A DNA stretch of 20,381 nt, taken from a virus. Made by a program: the position numbers and the translations under genes. Under the pieces are notes generated by a model, which saw only the letters and a program-made list of their open reading frames with translations, was not told the DNA's origin and made no database searches. The DNA lies in the IMG/VR virus record IMGVR_UViG_3300031227_000550, positions 1 to 20,381 of that record. One strand, 5' to 3'. This document shows, piece after piece, positions 9,130 through 18,202 of the stretch (positions are counted from its first letter, which is position 1; each line of letters opens with the position of its first letter).

Positions 9130-9753
9130 ATGCCTTCTTGGCCACCAGAAGCTAAATGGTTAGATCAAGACGTTTTTATTATCGGTGGCGGTAGATCCTT
9201 AAAAACGTTTGATTGGGATCTTCTAATCCCCGAACTGACTATAGGATGCAATACGGCCTACGAACTTGGAGAAGCTATTTGTAAAATTTGTATTTTTGGT
9301 GATATAAAATGGTGGCATAAACATAAGTCACATTTAGCACAATATAAAGGTGCAGTTTTTACAAATGCTTCTCAACTTATAAATAAAAATAAAACTCCTT
9401 GGTTATGGACAATGAGACGAGAGCCACACGGTCTTTACCATAATGCTCTTGGATGGAACAGTAATACAGGTTCTCTTGCCATAAATCTTGCCCTCATATT
9501 AGGTGCTAAAAGAGTTTTTCTTTTGGGCTTCGATATGCATCTTACGAATAAGAAGCCTAATTGGCATGATAATTTAATCGATAAACCTAATGATTCTGTT
9601 TACAATAAATTTATCGACAGCTTTAAAAAAGTATCTATTGATTGGAAAAAGAAATTTTCCGATAGAGAAATAATTAACATTACTGATAATAGCAATCTTG
9701 ATGTGTTTCCAAAAATAGGTGTTCAAGAATTTTGGGATGATCGGAATAAATAA
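9130..9753 (+). CDS. DUF115/MptE-like protein, possible glycosyltransferase-type fold
   Basis: A 207-aa protein starting directly after the previous stop. Motifs: 'VFIIGGGRSLKTFDW' (15-29, nucleotide-binding Rossmann-like loop), 'LTIGCNTAYELG' (36-47), 'CIFGDIKWW' (54-62), 'NTGSLAINLALILGAKRVFLLGFDM' (112-136) and 'NWHDN' (144-148). This set matches phage proteins often labelled 'norphogenetic' or DUF115/MptE-like, a fold shared by 6-hydroxymethylpterin pyrophosphokinase MptE and some sugar-transferring enzymes. In a head operon it may modify a virion or host-surface glycan, but the substrate is unknown. Its AT-rich codon use is like the neighbours. Confidence 0.65.
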   Translation: MPSWPPEAKWLDQDVFIIGGGRSLKTFDWDLLIPELTIGCNTAYELGEAICKICIFGDIKWWHKHKSHLAQYKGAVFTNASQLINKNKTPWLWTMRREPHGLYHNALGWNSNTGSLAINLALILGAKRVFLLGFDMHLTNKKPNWHDNLIDKPNDSVYNKFIDSFKKVSIDWKKKFSDREIINITDNSNLDVFPKIGVQEFWDDRNK

Positions 9754-10175: not shown

Positions 10176-10190
10176 AAAAAGGACATGTTC

Positions 10191-10523
10191 ATGGCTAAAC
10201 AAATTAAATTTAATGGCGGAACAAAATTAGCAGGATTCATTTTAGCTGTCACAACGGTGATAGTATCTATTACTTTGGCATGGAGTGATCAAAAAGGAGC
10301 AACGTTACTTTTAGACAATAAAGTGGATTCTTTTATCACACAACAAACAAAGGAAAGAATAGAATTGAAAAAGGATGGTTGTGATCCAGCAGGTATGAAC
10401 ACAACATCAGTAGCAGTTATTAAATCGCAATTAACAGATATCAAATTGCAATTGACAGATATTGAAAAAAAGCGAGAAGCCGACACAAATGCTCTTATGG
10501 AAGCAATAGGAAAAATGAAATAA
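10191..10523 (+). CDS. Membrane-anchored coiled-coil protein, 110 aa
   Basis: One predicted TM helix ('LAGFILAVTTVIVSITLAW', about residues 13-31) follows a short basic N terminus. The rest is hydrophilic with a C-terminal heptad region ('KSQLTDIKLQLTDIEKKREA') built from a 21-nt tandem duplication. I choose ATG 10191 rather than 10185 because the ribosome site AAAAGGA (10177-10183) is 7 nt from 10191 but only 1 nt from 10185. The gene ends in TAATG overlap with the next. A membrane protein inside the connector module is unexpected. It could be holin-like, spanin-like or an exclusion factor, and I do not recognise the family. Confidence 0.6.
   Translation: MAKQIKFNGGTKLAGFILAVTTVIVSITLAWSDQKGATLLLDNKVDSFITQQTKERIELKKDGCDPAGMNTTSVAVIKSQLTDIKLQLTDIEKKREADTNALMEAIGKMK
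10422..10463 (+). repeat. 21-nt tandem duplication encoding a coiled-coil heptad
   Basis: Copies at 10422-10442 and 10443-10463 differ at a few positions and encode KSQLTDI and KLQLTDI, seven residues each, so one heptad of the coiled coil was duplicated. Confidence 0.7.
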
Positions 10524-10882
10524 TGGGCATCATCACTAAAATGTTGAAGTATCAAACAGCAGTTTATTGGGCATTAGAATCTGCTGGCAGTGATTATGAT
10601 AATTTTGGAAAACCAAATATTACTGATCCCATAGTGATACAAGTAAGATGGGAAGATAATATGGTTGAATTTATTGCTGCTGATGGCACACAGCATATGA
10701 GCAATGCGGTTGTTTATGTAGATCAAGATGTTGTGCTTGGTGGTGTTTTAATGTTAGGTGGATTAGATGATGTGACAGATGAAACTAATCCAAAAGAAAA
10801 TGATAATGCTTGGGAAATAAGACGTTTTGATAAACTACCAAAATTAAGGCAAACTGAAATACTAAGGACAGTATATTTATAA
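10523..10882 (+). CDS. Head closure/stopper-type protein
   Basis: A 119-aa protein with TAATG overlaps at both ends (10523 and 10882), typical of tight co-translation. The sequence 'MLKYQTAVYWALESAGSDYDNFGKP', 'VRWEDNMVEFIAADGTQHMSNAVVYVDQDVVLGGVLMLG' and 'AWEIRRFDKLPKLRQTEILRTVYL' is a pattern I recognise from small beta-barrel phage proteins between adaptor and neck genes, which seal the connector after packaging. The exact family name is not recalled. Confidence 0.65.
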   Translation: MGIITKMLKYQTAVYWALESAGSDYDNFGKPNITDPIVIQVRWEDNMVEFIAADGTQHMSNAVVYVDQDVVLGGVLMLGGLDDVTDETNPKENDNAWEIRRFDKLPKLRQTEILRTVYL

Positions 10883-11259
10883 TGGCAAAAGTATTAGCAA
10901 TAACTGGAACAACTAATGTCATAAAGAATATGAAAAGATATTCTGATATGCAAGCTATTGGTTTGCGAAAAGGTTTGATTCGTGGCGGTTTGTTTTTACA
11001 ACGAGAAGCCCAAAAGATTGTTCCAGTAGATACTGGTAATTTAAAGGCAAGTGCAGGGACAAGAAATGTAGGAAACCTTTTGCATTTTCCTGATGTTGTA
11101 GTACATTTTGGTGATGGGGCAAATTACGCAGTAGATGTCCATGAGAATTTAGATTCAAAGCATAATGAAGGACAACTTGCAAAGTATTTAGAAAAGCCAG
11201 CAAAAGAAAAACGAGATGAGATTTTAAGAATGATTAGGGAAGAAACGAGTTTGATTTAA
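10882..11259 (+). CDS. HK97 gp10-like neck/tail-completion protein
   Basis: A 125-aa protein with the family signature 'IVPVDTGNLKASAGTRNVG' (about 47-65) preceded by the amphipathic helix 'GLRKGLIRGGLFLQREAQK' and followed by 'HFGDGANYAVDVHENLD'. Members of this family act at the head-tail junction. The start overlaps the previous stop. The stop is TAA 11257-11259, but the same frame continues in a coding-like way to TAG 11344-11346, just before the next ribosome site, so the protein may once have been 154 aa. Confidence 0.82.
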   Translation: MAKVLAITGTTNVIKNMKRYSDMQAIGLRKGLIRGGLFLQREAQKIVPVDTGNLKASAGTRNVGNLLHFPDVVVHFGDGANYAVDVHENLDSKHNEGQLAKYLEKPAKEKRDEILRMIREETSLI

Positions 11260-11346
11260 TACGCCTATGACGCTGCGGGTGCAGGCGACGATGATTACGA
11301 AAGATTGAATAGAAGGCCGAGATATTCTGGCACTGGTAGAAACTAG
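11260..11346 (+). other. In-frame open extension after the gp10-like stop
   Basis: After TAA 11257-11259 the frame stays open for 28 codons with purine-first, G-rich codons ('YAYDAAGAGDDDYERLNRRP...'). It ends at TAG 11344-11346, which touches the AGGAG (11345-11349) of the next gene. No start codon or ribosome site is suitable for an independent gene. It could be a former C terminus cut by a stop mutation, a readthrough extension, or chance. Confidence 0.4.
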
Positions 11347-11355
11347 GAGCATAGC

Positions 11356-11461
11356 ATGAAGAAACAAGTAGGCTTAATAATCGCAATAACTGTTATAGCG
11401 AGGAGCTATTGCAGAAGAATCAGAAGGCTATCCAAAATATATGATAGGAGTAGCAAGATGA
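11356..11461 (+). pseudogene. Tiny signal-peptide ORF with a +1 frameshift
   Basis: ATG 11356 follows AGGAG (11345-11349) by 6 nt and reads 'MKKQVGLIIAITVIAR', a Sec-type signal start. Frame 1 then becomes Arg/Cys/Tyr rich (11401 onward), while frame 2, open from 11399, gives the natural continuation 'GAIAEESEGYPKYMIGVAR' and stops at TGA 11459-11461, overlapping the next ATG as ATGA. Skipping one base near 11401 would yield a 34-aa exported peptide. It looks like a frameshifted short gene or the remnant of a longer one. Sequencing error or programmed shift are alternatives. Confidence 0.45.
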
Positions 11462-12657
11462 AGATACATATTTTAATAGTCTTGTTGATGTGTTTTTTAT
11501 GTTCAGCCGACACGAAATATGTTGACGGCGATTTAGGCACAGGCGACAACGATGGAACTTCATGGGCAAATGCTTGGCGAACCCTAGCACAGGCGGGTGA
11601 TGTAACGGCAGTAGCCCCCGGCGACATCGTCCTTGTGAGCAATAGCGTGACATATAGTGCGCAAGATGCTGCTACAAGTGCGATTATTACTATTGACGAT
11701 TCAGGCACATTGGCTGATGGTATGATTACATATCAGGGCTGTGATGGTACTGGAACGGACGAATCAGATTTTGTCGCAGCCCAGGTTATATTAGAAGCAA
11801 CGACAAATTCATTAAATTACTGCATCAACATATCGGGTAGTTTTATTTCTGTTCGGAATTTTACGGTCAGTGGCGCTACAGGTGGCTTTCAAACAGGCAT
11901 TTATGGCACTGCTTCGGATAATAGCGAAGTTATAAATTGCATTGCATCAGACAATGATGGTACTGGTATCCAAATGGACGATCAATGCTTTGTGGCCGGG
12001 TGCGTGGCATTTGATAATGCTATAGGCTTTGACGCTGACAACTACAATACAATGTACGGCTGTGATGGACACGACAACACAACATCTAATTTCACAATGA
12101 ATATAGGCTTTTATATTAATTGCTTGAGTTATGGTACACTAACAAATCATTTCGTTATATCTGCTAATGGCACACAAAGTGGTATATTCAATTGCACAAT
12201 AGACGGTGAGAACGCAGGCGTTGGCATGCTTTTCGATGATGCTTCACAGAATGTGTTGCCGATGATAGTTAATAACGTGATTTACGATCTGGCTACAGGT
12301 GCAGCAAGTGATACAACAATGCACGCAACAACCACAAGAGCGTTTAATAATTTGTGTTATTCTAATGCAGCAGACACCGACGGCGATATAGGCTTAGGTA
12401 CATGGTTGTCGGATGGCAAATTAACCTCCGCCCCCGGCTTTAAGACCGAGGGAACTGACTATCAGCCAACTACTGTATCTGCGTTGATAGATGCGGGATT
12501 TGGTTTGGGGTACAGAGTCATAGGTTGTTATTTTCCGGGTGATCTTGCAACTCTATCGAATGTGCTAAATACTGATACGTTATTTGATGAGGCAGGCACG
12601 GCCAGCGCCAGCAGTGGGGGCGGTCAACCTGTTATCGGAGGTTCTGTCGTAAGATGA
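11458..12657 (+). CDS. Secreted/virion right-handed beta-helix protein, 399 aa
   Basis: I start at ATG 11458 (AGGAG at 11446-11450, 7 nt upstream) because the protein then opens with a signal peptide ('MKIHILIVLLMCFLCSA', likely cleavage before Asp-Thr). An in-frame ATG at 11356 would bury this. The mature start 'YVDGDLGTGDNDGTSWANAWRTL' is typical of bacterial parallel beta-helix surface proteins, and repeated short 'NCIASDNDGTGI', 'GCVAFDNAIGF', 'GCDGHDNTTSN' rungs support the fold. No catalytic residues can be named. It is the first of three overlapping signal-peptide genes inserted between neck and tail terminator genes. Candidate receptor-binding, tailspike or host-surface protein. Confidence 0.65.
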   Translation: MKIHILIVLLMCFLCSADTKYVDGDLGTGDNDGTSWANAWRTLAQAGDVTAVAPGDIVLVSNSVTYSAQDAATSAIITIDDSGTLADGMITYQGCDGTGTDESDFVAAQVILEATTNSLNYCINISGSFISVRNFTVSGATGGFQTGIYGTASDNSEVINCIASDNDGTGIQMDDQCFVAGCVAFDNAIGFDADNYNTMYGCDGHDNTTSNFTMNIGFYINCLSYGTLTNHFVISANGTQSGIFNCTIDGENAGVGMLFDDASQNVLPMIVNNVIYDLATGAASDTTMHATTTRAFNNLCYSNAADTDGDIGLGTWLSDGKLTSAPGFKTEGTDYQPTTVSALIDAGFGLGYRVIGCYFPGDLATLSNVLNTDTLFDEAGTASASSGGGQPVIGGSVVR

Positions 12658-14540
12658 TTCGTTTGGTTACTATATTTGTTCTATGCTTTTGTTCTATGTC
12701 TATCGGTGCAAATCATTACATCCGCGATGGTGGAAGCGGTGACGGTTCGGCGTGGGACAATGCTCTTGACGCCCTCCCAGCAACTCTAACCCGCGATGAT
12801 ACTTATTATATTGCTGATGGTGATTACGTTCAATATACATTTGACGATGCCGTCGACGGCACGAAATATATCACAATCAAAAAAGCCACCGTTGCCGATC
12901 ATGGTACTGAAACAGGATGGGACAATGCTTATGGTGACGGTCAGGCGGTTTTTGAAGTACCTGACACCGGAAACACTGAGCCGGACAATACGGCCTGGTG
13001 GGTAAGGACAAATTACTGGATTTTTGATGGACAGGTTGGAGGCGGTCCTGGTGATTGGGATGGCGATACAAATCCACACGGATTCCTGCTGACGGTTGAT
13101 GTTGATAATTTTGTATACGATATTTATAATACTAATTTCATAAGGTTGGGTGGGGCAGCTACACAAACATCTGTTGATTTTGTCGAAATCAGGCATGTCG
13201 AAATCACACTTGGTTCAGCAACTCAGGAGTGGGGAGCAGAAGTTGATTACAATATATTCGGCATCACTGCTTCGCTAAGTTGGGATGATATTGTCGGAAC
13301 AACAGATGGGTGCTATAATGTTACTATTAGCGAGTGCTACTTTAATGAATTGCACGTTAATATCCATGCCACGTCCGGTCACAACTGGATCATAGAAAAT
13401 AACTATTTCTGGAAGAACCATGACAATGACGATGGCGGTTCTCGTCAAGAAAACGGCATGAAACAATATGCCCCTCACGATTTAACTATTCGGTATAATT
13501 TATTCTATAACCAAAATGGAACTGGTTCGATTACTATGAGTTGCGGCACGCAAAATGTGGAAGCTGATTTTCCAGATAAAAACGTTGAGAATGTTTATAT
13601 CTATGGCAATATATTCTATAATGACGATACTCTCGGAAATGATACTGGGACTATCTGTGTCACACTAGAACATCAACGTACTCAAGCGGAGATTGATGAG
13701 GGTGATAATTATATAACCAATTTATATGTTATCAATAATACCTTTTACGATAATTTTGGTGTCAATACATCGTCTGGCGTGCGTACCGAACAAGACGCTG
13801 ATGATGCTGACAATCCCGACTCAGATCATTATCCTCCAACTATAAGCAATTTCGTTGTTAAAAATAATCTATTTTATGACTCCGATGCAGGCCGTGGTTA
13901 CGGAGACCATTTCAATAATGTTTCTAGTTTTAGTTATAATTGGTTTTATGATTGTGATGATAGCAGGAATAACCAGGAGGATGCAGGTACTAATCGTGAC
14001 GATGAGTATGTTGCTTTGCAATCGTCTGGAGGGATAAAAGGCACGGGGTCACCTACAACTAACGCCTCAAACTTAGACTTTAGTTTAACAGGGGCGATAG
14101 AAGGAGACGATTCTGTTGGTGCTACATATAACACAGACATGCTCGGTAATACTCGCGGTGATGATGGTGCATGGGACATGGGCGCGTTAGAGTTTGAAGC
14201 TGACGTTGCGGCCCCAACACCAGACCCTGCGACATGGTCAAGTGCTCCAGCGGCGGTTAATTCAATTAGTATCACAATGACGGCAACAACTGGCACAGAT
14301 GCAAGCGGTCCAGTTGAATATTCGTTTGTGGAGACTTCGGGGAATTCAGGTGGGACAAGTTCCGGGTGGACAGAGAATCCCGTTTATGTAGATTACGGGC
14401 TATCACCAAGTACACAATATACATATACCGTCCAAATGAGGGATAGCGTGCCGAATACTGGTACTGCTTCATCTGGGGCAAATGCCACAACCGATGCTGC
14501 TACTGGCAGCGAACAATATTTATTAGGATTCAAACTATGA
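12654..14540 (+). CDS. Signal-peptide beta-helix protein with C-terminal FN3-like domain, 628 aa
   Basis: Overlaps the previous gene (ATGA), with GGAGG at 12637-12641. N terminus 'MIRLVTIFVLCFCSMSIGA' is a signal peptide; the mature start 'NHYIRDGGSGDGSAWDNALDAL' parallels that of the previous protein. Residues about 100-500 contain rungs such as 'DFVEIRHVEI', 'NWIIENNYFWKN', 'DLTIRYNLFYNQNG', 'NVYIYGNIFYND' and 'NFVVKNNLFYDS', the alternation seen in pectate-lyase-like beta-helices. 'DMGALEFE' closes the helix, and about 517-612 form an FN3-like domain ('PTPDPATW' to 'TYTVQMRD'). Role: probably carbohydrate-facing. Enzymatic activity cannot be decided from the sequence. Confidence 0.65.
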   Translation: MIRLVTIFVLCFCSMSIGANHYIRDGGSGDGSAWDNALDALPATLTRDDTYYIADGDYVQYTFDDAVDGTKYITIKKATVADHGTETGWDNAYGDGQAVFEVPDTGNTEPDNTAWWVRTNYWIFDGQVGGGPGDWDGDTNPHGFLLTVDVDNFVYDIYNTNFIRLGGAATQTSVDFVEIRHVEITLGSATQEWGAEVDYNIFGITASLSWDDIVGTTDGCYNVTISECYFNELHVNIHATSGHNWIIENNYFWKNHDNDDGGSRQENGMKQYAPHDLTIRYNLFYNQNGTGSITMSCGTQNVEADFPDKNVENVYIYGNIFYNDDTLGNDTGTICVTLEHQRTQAEIDEGDNYITNLYVINNTFYDNFGVNTSSGVRTEQDADDADNPDSDHYPPTISNFVVKNNLFYDSDAGRGYGDHFNNVSSFSYNWFYDCDDSRNNQEDAGTNRDDEYVALQSSGGIKGTGSPTTNASNLDFSLTGAIEGDDSVGATYNTDMLGNTRGDDGAWDMGALEFEADVAAPTPDPATWSSAPAAVNSISITMTATTGTDASGPVEYSFVETSGNSGGTSSGWTENPVYVDYGLSPSTQYTYTVQMRDSVPNTGTASSGANATTDAATGSEQYLLGFKL

Positions 14541-17422
14541 AAAAGCTAATTGTATTTTTAATGGTGCTGCTGACATTAAGTTCTGCTAAAGCAGATATAG
14601 AAAAATTCCCAATAAACGAATCACCGACGTTAATGGTACAAGCGTCGCAATTCAGTTCTGGTGCTGTATATGCAGCGTCTCCAATTGTGTGGGAAGTGTA
14701 TGAAGATGGCGTGTATATGGCATCCCCTGCGCAAACTGGAAACTTAACAGTTGCTGCTGCTGCTGCGTCTGCTGTAACAGGCAGGTATTACTATTCTCTT
14801 GCTTTGACAGCAGTAAACGGCTATGAAGTCGATAAGTTTTATACTGTGTATGTTGCTGCTACCGTAGATACCGTAGCAGCCAGTAGTAAAGTGTTGACGT
14901 TTATAATAGACCCTGAAGTTATTACAGCAGGATTGGCTAGAGCAGGTGCGGGCAATGCTGAAATACAACTGGCAGCTACGACAGATTTTGTGAATGACAT
15001 TCTAAATGGCGCTGTCGTGACGATAACAGCGGGAACGGGTGTGGGGCAGCAGAGGATTATAAATGATTGGGTTGATACAGGCGAAACGGCAACTTTAGAG
15101 GTAAATTGGATAACAAATCCTGATGCAACATCAAAATATGAAGTAAGATTAGCCTCCGTGAACGTCCAAACAATACAAAATTCAAGCCCTATTGCAATGA
15201 CTGATATTACAGACACAGGAAACCCCATAACTTTGACCGGGGCGACCGGGGCGATTGCTTTAGTAACAACTACGACTACCGCAACAAACCTCACTGCTCT
15301 TACCGCTGGTACGGTAGATGTGGACTTTAACAGCATGGCAATTACGTCTACAACTGGTGATGCTGTTACAATTACATCAGGTGGAGGGGACGGGCATGGT
15401 GTTAAAGTTACTGCTAATGGTAGCGGTGATGGGATAAATATTACTGGGGGTTTAACCGGTGACGGCATCAACCTTTCTGCTGGAGCAACCAGTGGGACAG
15501 GCCTATCTGCTACAGGGGTGGGTGCTGGCTCAGGTTTTTACGCAAGGGGCGGAGTAACAGCCGGTTCTGGTATTCATGCGGCAGGTTATGGTGGTGGAGC
15601 AGCAATGTATTTAAGGGGTCAGGGGGCGGGCAATGGGCTCGATATTGCCGGTGGTACAACCGGGCACTCATTTGATCTTACAACTCTCGCTGAAATAGCA
15701 ACTTATGTATGGGTGAGCGACATCTCAGGTGTTTCAACCGCAAACTACGCAGGAACTATATTAAATGATGTACCTAGTACAGCAGAGTTTGAAAACAGAA
15801 CAATCAGCACTACTGCTGCTGGCAATATGGAAGACACTTATGATGGTACTGGTTATTCAAATGGTGTAGCACCAGCAACGCAGGAGCAACTTGATAATAT
15901 AGCCAATACAGGTGCTGCAATTAACAAATTAGCAAGTGGATCTGAAAATATTACAGGAACACCTACTAATACTTACACATCTACACAGGCTCTTGATGGT
16001 GTTTACCATTCTATCGCGCCAGCCACAACCACGATAGCAGTAGATTATAATTTTGATATCGGAACGACAGGCGTTCCAGTTTCTGTGACACTTGTAGGCA
16101 GACTATATGACCCACCAGCAACAAGCAATTCAATAGAAGTATTTGCATATGATTGGGTTGCTTTGGATTGGTCTCAAGTTGGTGAGTTGACTGGCACTGC
16201 TTCTGCCAATGATGCATTTTATACTGTCATCCTTTTCTCAAAACACGTTGGAACTGGTAGTAATGATGGATTGGTTAATATCAGATTCACAAACGCAAGT
16301 ATCGATTCTGGTACGATCTTTTATGCTGATTTGATTTATTGTTCATATGCTGTTGTTTCTTCAACCCTTGGGTATGCTAACGGTTCTATATGGGTCGATA
16401 CAGTTAATGGCACTGCTGGGACTGTTGAGGGTGTAAACGGTGTGGCTGATTTTCCGGTCGATTCATGGGCGGACGCTGTAACACTGGCTGGACTTACTGA
16501 TCTTTATATTTTCCAGATAACAAACGGTTCTGCTATTGAATTAACAGGTAATAGTGATAATTATATGCTGCATGGCATAGAGTACACACTTGCACTTGCA
16601 GGACAGTCTATTGCAAATTCGCACATAAAAGGTGCTGTTGTTTCTGGTATCAGTGCTGGCACGAGTGCGAGATTTGAAGATTGTAAAATTGGTATAGTGT
16701 CACTTACGGCTTGTGGAATGAAACATTGTGCTTTTCAATCGGATATTACTTTGCTGTCGGCAGGCACTTATATATTTGATAATTGCTTTTCCGCTGTAGC
16801 AGGGATAACTATACCAAGTATTGATTTTGGTGCTGCTCTTGGCGACACAAATCTTAATCTCAGACATTATTCAGGTGGTATTGAGATTAAAAATATGGGT
16901 GGTGCAGGTACAGATAAGATGAGTCTTGAGGGTTGGGGACAATTAGTTATTGCTGATAGTTCTGATGCTGGGACGATAGCCATACGAGGTGCATTTACTA
17001 TTACTGATAATGCTGCTGGCGGTAGTTTCTCCGGCACACTATCGGATAACGCCAGATATGATACAGGCCAAATCGCTAGTGAATTAGCAACATATGATGG
17101 ACCAACAAACACTGAGATGGAAGCAAGAACACTTTTAACAGCAAACTATTATGACTTTACAACTGATAGTGTTCAATTATTAACCACGGGTGGTTCTGCT
17201 GGAATAAATGCAGAAGAATTAGTTGATCTATATTTTGCAGAAATAATCGAAGCTACTTATACTTATAAAGATTTGATCAGAGTAACAGGTTCTTACATAG
17301 CTGGCGACTATGTTATATCTGGCACCACTTATACATATGAAGGACTTGACGGAGCCACTACAAGGATTGTTGGTGCTGCTTCCAGTTCTGGCAGAACTAT
17401 GTCAACTGTGAGTGGGGATTAA
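14537..17422 (+). CDS. Large tail-fibre-like protein with signal peptide, 961 aa
   Basis: Overlaps the previous stop (ATGA). Residues 1-20 form a signal peptide ('MKKLIVFLMVLLTLSSAKA'). Then come a beta-sandwich-like region ('PIVWEVYEDGVYMASPAQTG', about 50-120), a phage-type module 'GAGNAEIQLAATTDFVNDIL...GVGQQRIINDW' (about 137-215), Gly-rich 11-12-residue repeats (about 281-378), and a long C-terminal part with 'GSIWVDTVNGTAGTVEGVNG' (about 615-634) and 'LRHYSGGIEIKNMG...MSLEGWGQLVI' (about 774-805). The last block is a module I recognise from siphophage tail or structural proteins. So this is very likely a virion fibre or adhesin, which makes its signal peptide surprising. Confidence 0.7.
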   Translation: MKKLIVFLMVLLTLSSAKADIEKFPINESPTLMVQASQFSSGAVYAASPIVWEVYEDGVYMASPAQTGNLTVAAAAASAVTGRYYYSLALTAVNGYEVDKFYTVYVAATVDTVAASSKVLTFIIDPEVITAGLARAGAGNAEIQLAATTDFVNDILNGAVVTITAGTGVGQQRIINDWVDTGETATLEVNWITNPDATSKYEVRLASVNVQTIQNSSPIAMTDITDTGNPITLTGATGAIALVTTTTTATNLTALTAGTVDVDFNSMAITSTTGDAVTITSGGGDGHGVKVTANGSGDGINITGGLTGDGINLSAGATSGTGLSATGVGAGSGFYARGGVTAGSGIHAAGYGGGAAMYLRGQGAGNGLDIAGGTTGHSFDLTTLAEIATYVWVSDISGVSTANYAGTILNDVPSTAEFENRTISTTAAGNMEDTYDGTGYSNGVAPATQEQLDNIANTGAAINKLASGSENITGTPTNTYTSTQALDGVYHSIAPATTTIAVDYNFDIGTTGVPVSVTLVGRLYDPPATSNSIEVFAYDWVALDWSQVGELTGTASANDAFYTVILFSKHVGTGSNDGLVNIRFTNASIDSGTIFYADLIYCSYAVVSSTLGYANGSIWVDTVNGTAGTVEGVNGVADFPVDSWADAVTLAGLTDLYIFQITNGSAIELTGNSDNYMLHGIEYTLALAGQSIANSHIKGAVVSGISAGTSARFEDCKIGIVSLTACGMKHCAFQSDITLLSAGTYIFDNCFSAVAGITIPSIDFGAALGDTNLNLRHYSGGIEIKNMGGAGTDKMSLEGWGQLVIADSSDAGTIAIRGAFTITDNAAGGSFSGTLSDNARYDTGQIASELATYDGPTNTEMEARTLLTANYYDFTTDSVQLLTTGGSAGINAEELVDLYFAEIIEATYTYKDLIRVTGSYIAGDYVISGTTYTYEGLDGATTRIVGAASSSGRTMSTVSGD
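15379..15675 (+). repeat. Gly-rich degenerate repeat array in the fibre protein
   Basis: About seven units of 11-12 residues with a G-x-G-hydrophobic-x-x-x-G-G core ('GDGINITGG', 'GDGINLSAG', 'GTGLSATG', 'GSGFYARGG', 'GSGIHAAG', 'GNGLDIAGG'). Such units form slender beta-structured shafts in phage fibres. Confidence 0.65.
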
Positions 17423-17425
17423 ATC

Positions 17426-18202
17426 ATGGCTTGGCAAAATGATTGGCAAAATGATTGGCAAAGTGATTGGCAAGGAACAGTAACTGGTGTTTTGCCTAAT
17501 GCTCCTACAATCACTTTAGTCATGTCTGGTTCTACAGCTACAGTCTCTGTCGATGGGGCAGCAGGTGCTACAAACTATGTTTATTATCAAACGATTGTAG
17601 GAGGAGATTGGACACTTGGTGGTTTTGTTGTTGGTGACGGTGATGTGGTTATTTCAGATTTAGACGCTGGTCAATATATATTTACAGCTCAGTCTACTGT
17701 AAGCGGCGTGCCTTCAGGACTTAGTAATACAGTAATTGGGTGGGTCGTAAGTAGTGATTTAACATTTGATAATTCACCAGCATTTATTTTGGCGAGTTAT
17801 TTAATCAGTTCGATTTCTAAAATGACAAGTCCATCAGATAGAGATACTTGGCCCCTATACACGGCTCATCTACCTGATGGTAGTAATGTAGAATCAAACG
17901 CTGGTTGTATTTATGATACTCCGGGCATTAAAGATGGCAGATTGATGAGCGGCCCGGTAGTTGATCATCCCGGAATACAAATAAAGATCAGATCACTGGA
18001 CCATCAAATAGGTTACGCAAAAGCAGATGAGTTATCAAAAGCGTTAGATGAAATATCTTATTTTTCGATAGTCGTAAATACAGTGACTTATCAAATTAGG
18101 AATGCAAGCAGATTAACACCAGTTACTTTTATAGGGGTTGAAGAAGGCACAAAAAGACGAGATTTATTTACAGTAAATTACTTAACAACAATATTCAAAT
18201 AG
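17426..18202 (+). CDS. Tail terminator with extra N-terminal Ig/FN3-like domain
   Basis: A 258-aa fusion. Residues 1-17 are a Trp-rich repeat ('MAWQNDWQNDWQSDWQG'). About 22-107 form a beta-sandwich-like domain ('NAPTITLVMSGSTATVSVDG', 'TNYVYYQ', 'ISDLDAGQYIFTAQST'). The rest (about 118-258) matches tail terminator/minor capsid proteins: 'IYDTPGIKDGRLMSGPVVDHPGIQIKIRS', 'AKADELSKALDEI', 'YQIRNASRLTPVTFIGVEEGTKRRDLFTVNYL'. The terminator caps the tail tube at its head-proximal end and sits where expected, right before the tube gene. The added domain would decorate the neck. No internal start separates the parts. Confidence 0.72.
   Translation: MAWQNDWQNDWQSDWQGTVTGVLPNAPTITLVMSGSTATVSVDGAAGATNYVYYQTIVGGDWTLGGFVVGDGDVVISDLDAGQYIFTAQSTVSGVPSGLSNTVIGWVVSSDLTFDNSPAFILASYLISSISKMTSPSDRDTWPLYTAHLPDGSNVESNAGCIYDTPGIKDGRLMSGPVVDHPGIQIKIRSLDHQIGYAKADELSKALDEISYFSIVVNTVTYQIRNASRLTPVTFIGVEEGTKRRDLFTVNYLTTIFK
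17432..17474 (+). repeat. 12-bp tandem repeat (TGGCAAAATGAT) at a protein N terminus
   Basis: Units at 17432, 17444 and 17456 (one mismatch) plus a partial fourth at 17468 encode the repeated W-Q-N/S-D motif of the terminator protein. Confidence 0.85.

Follow-up and report, generated by a model that had tools for sequence, protein, structure and literature searches.

The virion parts of tailed phages are normally made and assembled in the cytoplasm, and the known phage appendage proteins are likewise synthesized there and lack signal peptides. These tail and neck appendages, with their β-helix, LamG and CBM folds (e.g., the phi812 baseplate protein 9eui_D), are close counterparts of the locus described here, which resembles them in module folds, operon position and sugar-binding-type architecture; however, while the known ones have no signal peptide, each of the three large genes of this locus bears one. 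The PblA and PblB proteins of phage SM1, which act as streptococcal surface adhesins, are tail-like proteins active at the host cell surface, which they reach after lysis with no classical signal peptide, whereas the cassette considered here has such peptides. Phage-encoded exported proteins, some of them from the tail-gene region, are found among the morons and superinfection-exclusion proteins (lambda Lom, Cor and Llp), with Lom being an envelope protein encoded among the tail genes (PMC12309495). In contrast to these small membrane proteins or lipoproteins, our locus comprises three large coupled genes that share modules with tail-type proteins devoid of signal peptides. Signal peptides, present on bacterial DGR target proteins, are reported to be absent from those of phages (PMC6199706). 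Finally, the secreted right-handed β-helix proteins of Planctomycetota (choice-of-anchor-Q, Fn3) are homologous to the second protein of the locus over its full length, signal peptide included, but they are products of cellular genes outside any virion operon, and the third protein of the locus is of another kind. The literature searched, which was covered in part, offered no description of signal peptides on phage structural proteins or of such a cassette.

The window (the whole stretch of DNA analyzed, namely the 20,381-base IMG/VR virus record IMGVR_UViG_3300031227_000550) carries co-directional genes for the terminase, portal, Mu-F-like, DUF2213, major capsid, neck and tail proteins. Two further contigs from metagenome 3300035698 overlap it without gaps at an identity of at least 99.95% and prolong it rightwards; this extension encodes a 722-aa tape measure and includes large tail genes along with several genes resembling glycosyltransferases. 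Between the neck and tail genes lie the three cassette genes, whose products we term SP1, SP2 and SP3 after their signal peptides (Table 1); ATGA overlaps at 12654 and 14537 couple the genes and argue for their co-translation. The first-pass annotation of this DNA had posited three large, ATGA-coupled signal-peptide genes (399, 628 and 961 aa) between neck and tail terminator genes, the third with phage tail-type modules. All of this was borne out: the ORFs, overlaps and N-termini are as claimed, the flanks match PF04883/phrog_5 and PF12691, and the modules match phage proteins from two other loci (L107 and L067).

Table 1. Features of the cassette and its immediate flanks (window coordinates).
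Feature	Position	Strand	Evidence
Conserved gene of the head-tail connector region, 119 aa; left context	10523..10882	+	71 orthologous ORFs among relatives
HK97-gp10-like neck/tail-completion protein, 125 aa; bounds the slot on the left	10882..11259	+	PF04883, phrog_5
Tiny +1-frameshifted ORF: signal peptide and short C-terminal tail GYPKYMIGVAR	11356..11460	+	Three-frame translation
SP1, 399 aa: predicted Sec signal peptide and right-handed β-helix	11458..12657	+	PF13229 E 1.6e-4, below cut-off
SP2, 628 aa: predicted Sec signal peptide, β-helix, choice-of-anchor-Q-like segment and Fn3-like domain	12654..14540	+	Weak NF041518
SP3, 961 aa: predicted Sec signal peptide and phage tail-type modules	14537..17422	+	Jelly roll ~460-607, β-solenoid ~642-845
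Tail terminator, 258 aa, without signal peptide; right border of the slot, possible docking adaptor	17426..18202	+	PF12691

The order of gp10-like gene, cassette, tail terminator and tail tube is conserved in relatives. The gp10-like protein, with 76 related ORFs there, matches phrog_5 with an E-value of 1.3e-8 and PF04883 with one of 0.0015, which is below the curated cut-off. The tail terminator matches PF12691 through residues 156-227 (E 2e-8) and has an N-terminal W-repeat/Fn3-like extension of ~115 aa, while the PHROG matches of the 119-aa connector-region protein are weak and of unknown function. Phage morons have a promoter and terminator of their own and do not depend on the late operon; here promoter-like sites are not in excess (25 against 25.9 expected from shuffles), and terminator-like sites number 8 against 5.0 expected. 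Several neighboring elements also merit mention. Between the capsid and neck genes, a 207-aa MptE/DUF115-like gene (9130-9753, plus strand; PF01973 E 0.003, below cut-off) is related to 89 ORFs from the loci compared, and a second such gene accompanies the glycosyltransferase-like genes of the right extension (L005 10439-13165). Near the g135 gene there is another small slot: in the window it encodes a protein with a single membrane helix (10185-10523, plus strand), and several relatives have signal-peptide- or lipoprotein-like genes there (L104 3238-4161, L132 1097-1585, L137 2006-2287). In frame behind the stop of the gp10-like gene, an open stretch up to the next stop (11260-11343, plus strand; YAYDAAGAGDDDYERLNRRPRYSGTGRN) appears to be the remaining end of a gene since lost.

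Each cassette protein begins with a short basic n-region and a hydrophobic core, followed by small residues at -3/-1 as in a site of the signal peptidase I type: MKIHILIVLLMCFLCSA/DTK in SP1, MIRLVTIFVLCFCSMSIGA/NHY in SP2 and MKKLIVFLMVLLTLSSAKA/DIE in SP3 (slash, predicted cleavage site). A single predictor, a home-made and crude rule distinct from SignalP, was used for all loci; none of 3000 shuffles per N-terminus reached the native score for SP1, SP2 or SP3. The three N-termini have no lipobox, no C-terminal sorting signal was recognized in these proteins, and no extra cysteines were seen in the signal-peptide-bearing proteins. Erroneous gene starts were ruled out for SP2 and SP3, given the ATGA coupling and the position of every later in-frame start inside the signal itself, save for one at codon 33 of SP3; the SP1 frame is also open from 11356 (433 aa). 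An assembly artifact was likewise ruled out, with the cassette being identical in independent contigs bar scattered single-base differences.

The first-pass annotation had also noted a tiny frameshifted gene with a signal peptide. This ORF, located ahead of SP1, is present in both the window and another contig of the collection, where the frameshift is identical and gap-free. It reads MKKQVGLIIAITVIA in frame 1 and then GAIAEESEGYPKYMIGVAR in the +1 frame, up to a stop that shares bases with the SP1 ATG at 11458. In a post hoc comparison, its tail resembles the C-termini of SP1 (QPVIGGSVVR), SP2 (QYLLGFKL) and the β-helix protein of L107 (RKMIGVS), and it may thus be the relic of a cassette gene whose middle was deleted; this likeness is only suggestive, since the C-terminal pattern occurs in ~5% of all proteins examined (71/1447).

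Beyond their N-termini, the cassette proteins have diverse connections. Proteins from the same slot in L107 and L067, neither of them with a signal peptide, have ~410 residues in common with SP3 (E 1e-92 and 2e-87, respectively); a scan with the SP3 modules added further loci, with a signal peptide on the module gene only in the window's own locus. An AF2 model of SP3 is reliable over residues ~460-607 and 642-845 (pLDDT mostly 60-84 over 490-836). As most of the model is unreliable and whole-protein Foldseek TM-scores are low, fold comparison was confined to 458-845. This region recovers carbohydrate-binding modules (CBM29, 1wcu; Z 11.2, 122 residues, 2.8 Å) and, with its second part, β-solenoid designs (5dn0; Z 12.0, 192 residues, 3.7 Å); phi812 9eui_D is also matched by the model (Z 10.9, 140 residues, 3.2 Å). 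The predicted fold fits a sugar-binding appendage, and other signal-peptide-bearing cassettes feature LamG and GDSL domains. The SP2 model is poor (mean pLDDT 40). SP2 is homologous to a 914-aa protein from L019 (E 1e-34). The N-terminal part of SP1 matches a 532-aa protein from L104 (E 7e-9) with a different N-terminus and no signal peptide.

A related tail-type module, LKQST, characterized by the pattern L[KR]xxTAxxxxxGPFxDxxDG in L019 and L118, is found in numerous phage loci as well as in an isolate, Microcystis phage PP496355 (L124), whose version has no signal peptide. In most loci without a signal peptide it starts at residue 2-6 (L124, L126, L127, L128, L130, L134, L141, L107, L076 and others), while in L019, L118 and L131 it lies directly behind the predicted cleavage site; the L019 protein retains the C-terminal motif of the versions lacking the signal. 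Similarly, the L107 β-helix protein, which is without a signal peptide, starts with MATYYVNA (M-ATYYVNAATGDDG) where the signal-peptide-bearing ones start after cleavage. As the same modules occur without it in other phage loci, the signal peptide on SP3 and the tail-type genes is an N-terminal accessory to what are phage-type proteins. The Fn3-like extension of the terminator (window 17426-17770) is shared with the L107 terminator (L107 15513-16349). Such a domain is instead fused to the connector gene in L092 (19589-20860), L087 (9077-10354) and L089, as if an Fn3-like adaptor moved among neck proteins, and we read these extensions as putative adaptors near the neck.

Searches with the capsid protein recovered 47 and then 80 viral loci (80 of 395 capsid relatives), which were aligned by profile searches. 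Across ~75 capsid relatives, among the 80 of 395 listed, the junction between the gp10-like and terminator genes is a variable slot, a generality that goes beyond the first-pass annotation, as does the affinity of SP2, closest to secreted Planctomycetota proteins. In most of the listed relatives the slot is empty, with the gp10-like gene directly beside the tail terminator. Large genes without signal peptides fill it in L008, L009, L012, L023, L062, L065, L067, L100 and L122. Signal-peptide genes occupy it in a scattered minority, namely the window, L118, L019 and L010, with those of L032 and L051 lying just past the terminator. All three proteins of L118 (627 aa β-helix-like, 263 aa LamG, 274+ aa tail-type) and L019 (914 aa β-helix, 291 aa LamG, 394 aa tail-type) have signal peptides, whereas L010 is mixed (1121 aa with and 212 aa without). 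In L032/L051 the program scores a signal in one of three genes, with the remaining two judged by eye. L131, found via the tail-type module, combines a LamG and a tail-type gene, both with signal peptides. Three loci with filled slots (L008, L009, L023) have two successive tail-terminator-like genes behind them (e.g., 179 and 147 aa), and in L019 the g119 gene is duplicated, with the extra copy adjoining the cassette. A GDSL lipase/acylhydrolase domain (PF13472, E 1e-12) lies within the 1121-aa L010 protein (13858-17223, plus strand) and points to a putative exported esterase.

Of the 42 slot genes that measure 200 aa or more in the relatives, 11 scored as bearing a signal peptide, against none of the 856 core virion genes; the tape measure, counted apart from the latter, scored in 5 of 52 cases (internal membrane segments). 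Pairs of signal-peptide-bearing genes within cassettes number 9 against 1.5 expected, a value reached in none of 20,000 permutations (p < 5e-5, only indicative in view of the coarse scoring and the kinship of the loci). On the capsid tree, whose bootstrap has not settled, the phages with these signals are scattered, with at least four changes on the best tree, two of which are forced by well-supported branches. Like cassettes occur at the same slot in related phages, some of them with signal peptides, but most slots are empty and others are filled with genes lacking the signal. Homologs without the hydrophobic N-terminus, which had been named as evidence against the first-pass claim, do exist at this slot (L107, L067), so that the signal peptide is not obligatory for these proteins; yet it recurs on like genes in several other phages (L019, L118, L131, L010, L032/L051) and is therefore no accident of this genome.

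Direct relatives of the three genes among viral contigs are confined to the near-identical contigs from metagenome 3300035698, and SP1, SP2 and SP3 had neither tblastn matches in the phage collection nor a PHROG family. SP2, in contrast, fits the Planctomycetota secreted β-helix family over its full length (signal peptide, β-helix and choice-of-anchor-Q-like C-terminal part), although its NF041518 match (E 0.014) is below the cut-off. Its residues 1-515 match two tandem signal-peptide-bearing genes adjoining an rfbC-like gene on a contig of a Planctomycetota MAG (L159; E 4e-33 and 2e-21). For its Fn3 part, proteins of one Planctomycetota genome show 57-63% identity, and 23 of 294 genomes have a match. 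With SP2 resembling secreted Planctomycetota proteins, signal peptide included, and SP3 being phage-type, the cassette is, by sequence, mosaic: in part host-secretome-like, in part phage-type. As SP2 looks host-derived, its signal peptide may be inherited rather than selected. Relatives of the major capsid protein in MAGs come from Bacteroidales, Planctomycetaceae, FCB group and archaeal bins, where binning errors are possible; 294 Planctomycetota and 198 Bacteroidota-side genomes yielded none beyond the MAGs already found. A planctomycete host is plausible, though a guess.

We propose that the three genes represent a neck/tail appendage cassette of an exchangeable kind, here in exported form. 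The cassettes without signal peptides at the same site, with their β-helix, LamG-type lectin and tail-type modules, would presumably supply virion appendages that stay in the cytoplasm. In the window and a number of further lineages, Sec signals would send the proteins to the periplasm or cell exterior late in infection. Glycans of the envelope or the extracellular space would be their targets there, and they would meet the cytoplasm-assembled virions only at cell lysis; docking might then occur via the Fn3-like adaptor on the non-exported tail terminator. The signal-peptide-like N-termini, the operon placement, the homologs of the phage-type modules lacking such signals, the recurrence and the clustering by cassette are observed in the sequences. 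From these we infer the probable cleavage and export of the proteins, their likely binding of glycans and the appendage role of the versions without signals. As a whole, we lean towards this explanation, with modest confidence. Docking at lysis is speculative, its basis being a generic Fn3-like adaptor, and even if export is real we would put it at somewhat short of an even chance.

The strongest competitor, which we take seriously despite thinking it probably incorrect, is that the proteins stay off the virion and act on the envelope of the infected cell, binding receptors or surface glycans and blocking superinfection or re-adsorption, with the slot providing only late co-expression. The Sec signals on all cassette proteins, the sugar-binding-like folds, the LamG and GDSL domains of other such cassettes and the precedent of envelope proteins from tail regions, such as lambda Lom (PMC12309495), agree with it; but the genes are coupled inside the virion operon, with promoter-like sites no more frequent than in shuffles, virion-type modules and a terminator adaptor are retained, and neither a lipobox nor a C-terminal sorting signal was recognized. 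Cell-surface action without docking is about as likely as docking at lysis; Fn3-like adaptors near the neck (window, L107, L087, L089, L092) lead us to favor docking slightly over a purely envelope role, the difference being small.

The full-length, signal-peptide-bearing SP2 homologs beside the rfbC-like gene, together with the Planctomycetota affinity of its Fn3 part, suggest another origin, namely the capture of host secretome cargo, signal peptides included, in a tolerant spot with no virion link. This is unlikely for the cassette as a whole and cannot explain all of it, because SP3 and the tail-type module of L019, L118 and L131 are phage-type: the SP3 modules occur in phage loci, those three loci bear signals on a module otherwise without them in phages, and appendage genes lacking signals occupy the same slot. 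It is quite improbable that the N-termini are in practice no export signals but membrane anchors, or neutral signals on proteins folding in the cytoplasm. Homologs without them are indeed common, the predictor is crude and cleavage is known as a prediction only; against this, a signal-like cleavage site follows a short hydrophobic core each time, and the signals recur in several lineages, cluster by cassette and are never on core virion genes. As for the exported appendage cassette that we propose, the occurrence of the SP3 modules without a signal peptide in every other locus found counts against export being essential. Also weighing against it are the mixed L010 cassette, the two L032/L051 genes whose signals were judged by eye, the perhaps inherited signal of SP2 and the lack of extra cysteines in the proteins with signals.

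The observation of three coupled genes with signal-peptide-like N-termini between neck and tail genes is confirmed, and its interpretation, a tailed-phage appendage cassette whose export signals recur, is partly supported. In its most general form, which we offer tentatively as an outside chance, a group of tailed phages would repeatedly add Sec signals to the genes of a neck/tail appendage cassette that binds glycans and so have its products exported, with a part of the virion made outside the cytoplasm and joining it at or after lysis. If cassette-wide export of appendage modules is true, it would mean either late extracytoplasmic virion assembly or the reuse of adhesins as secreted tools, and the pairing of cassettes with and without signal peptides at one slot makes the question directly testable.
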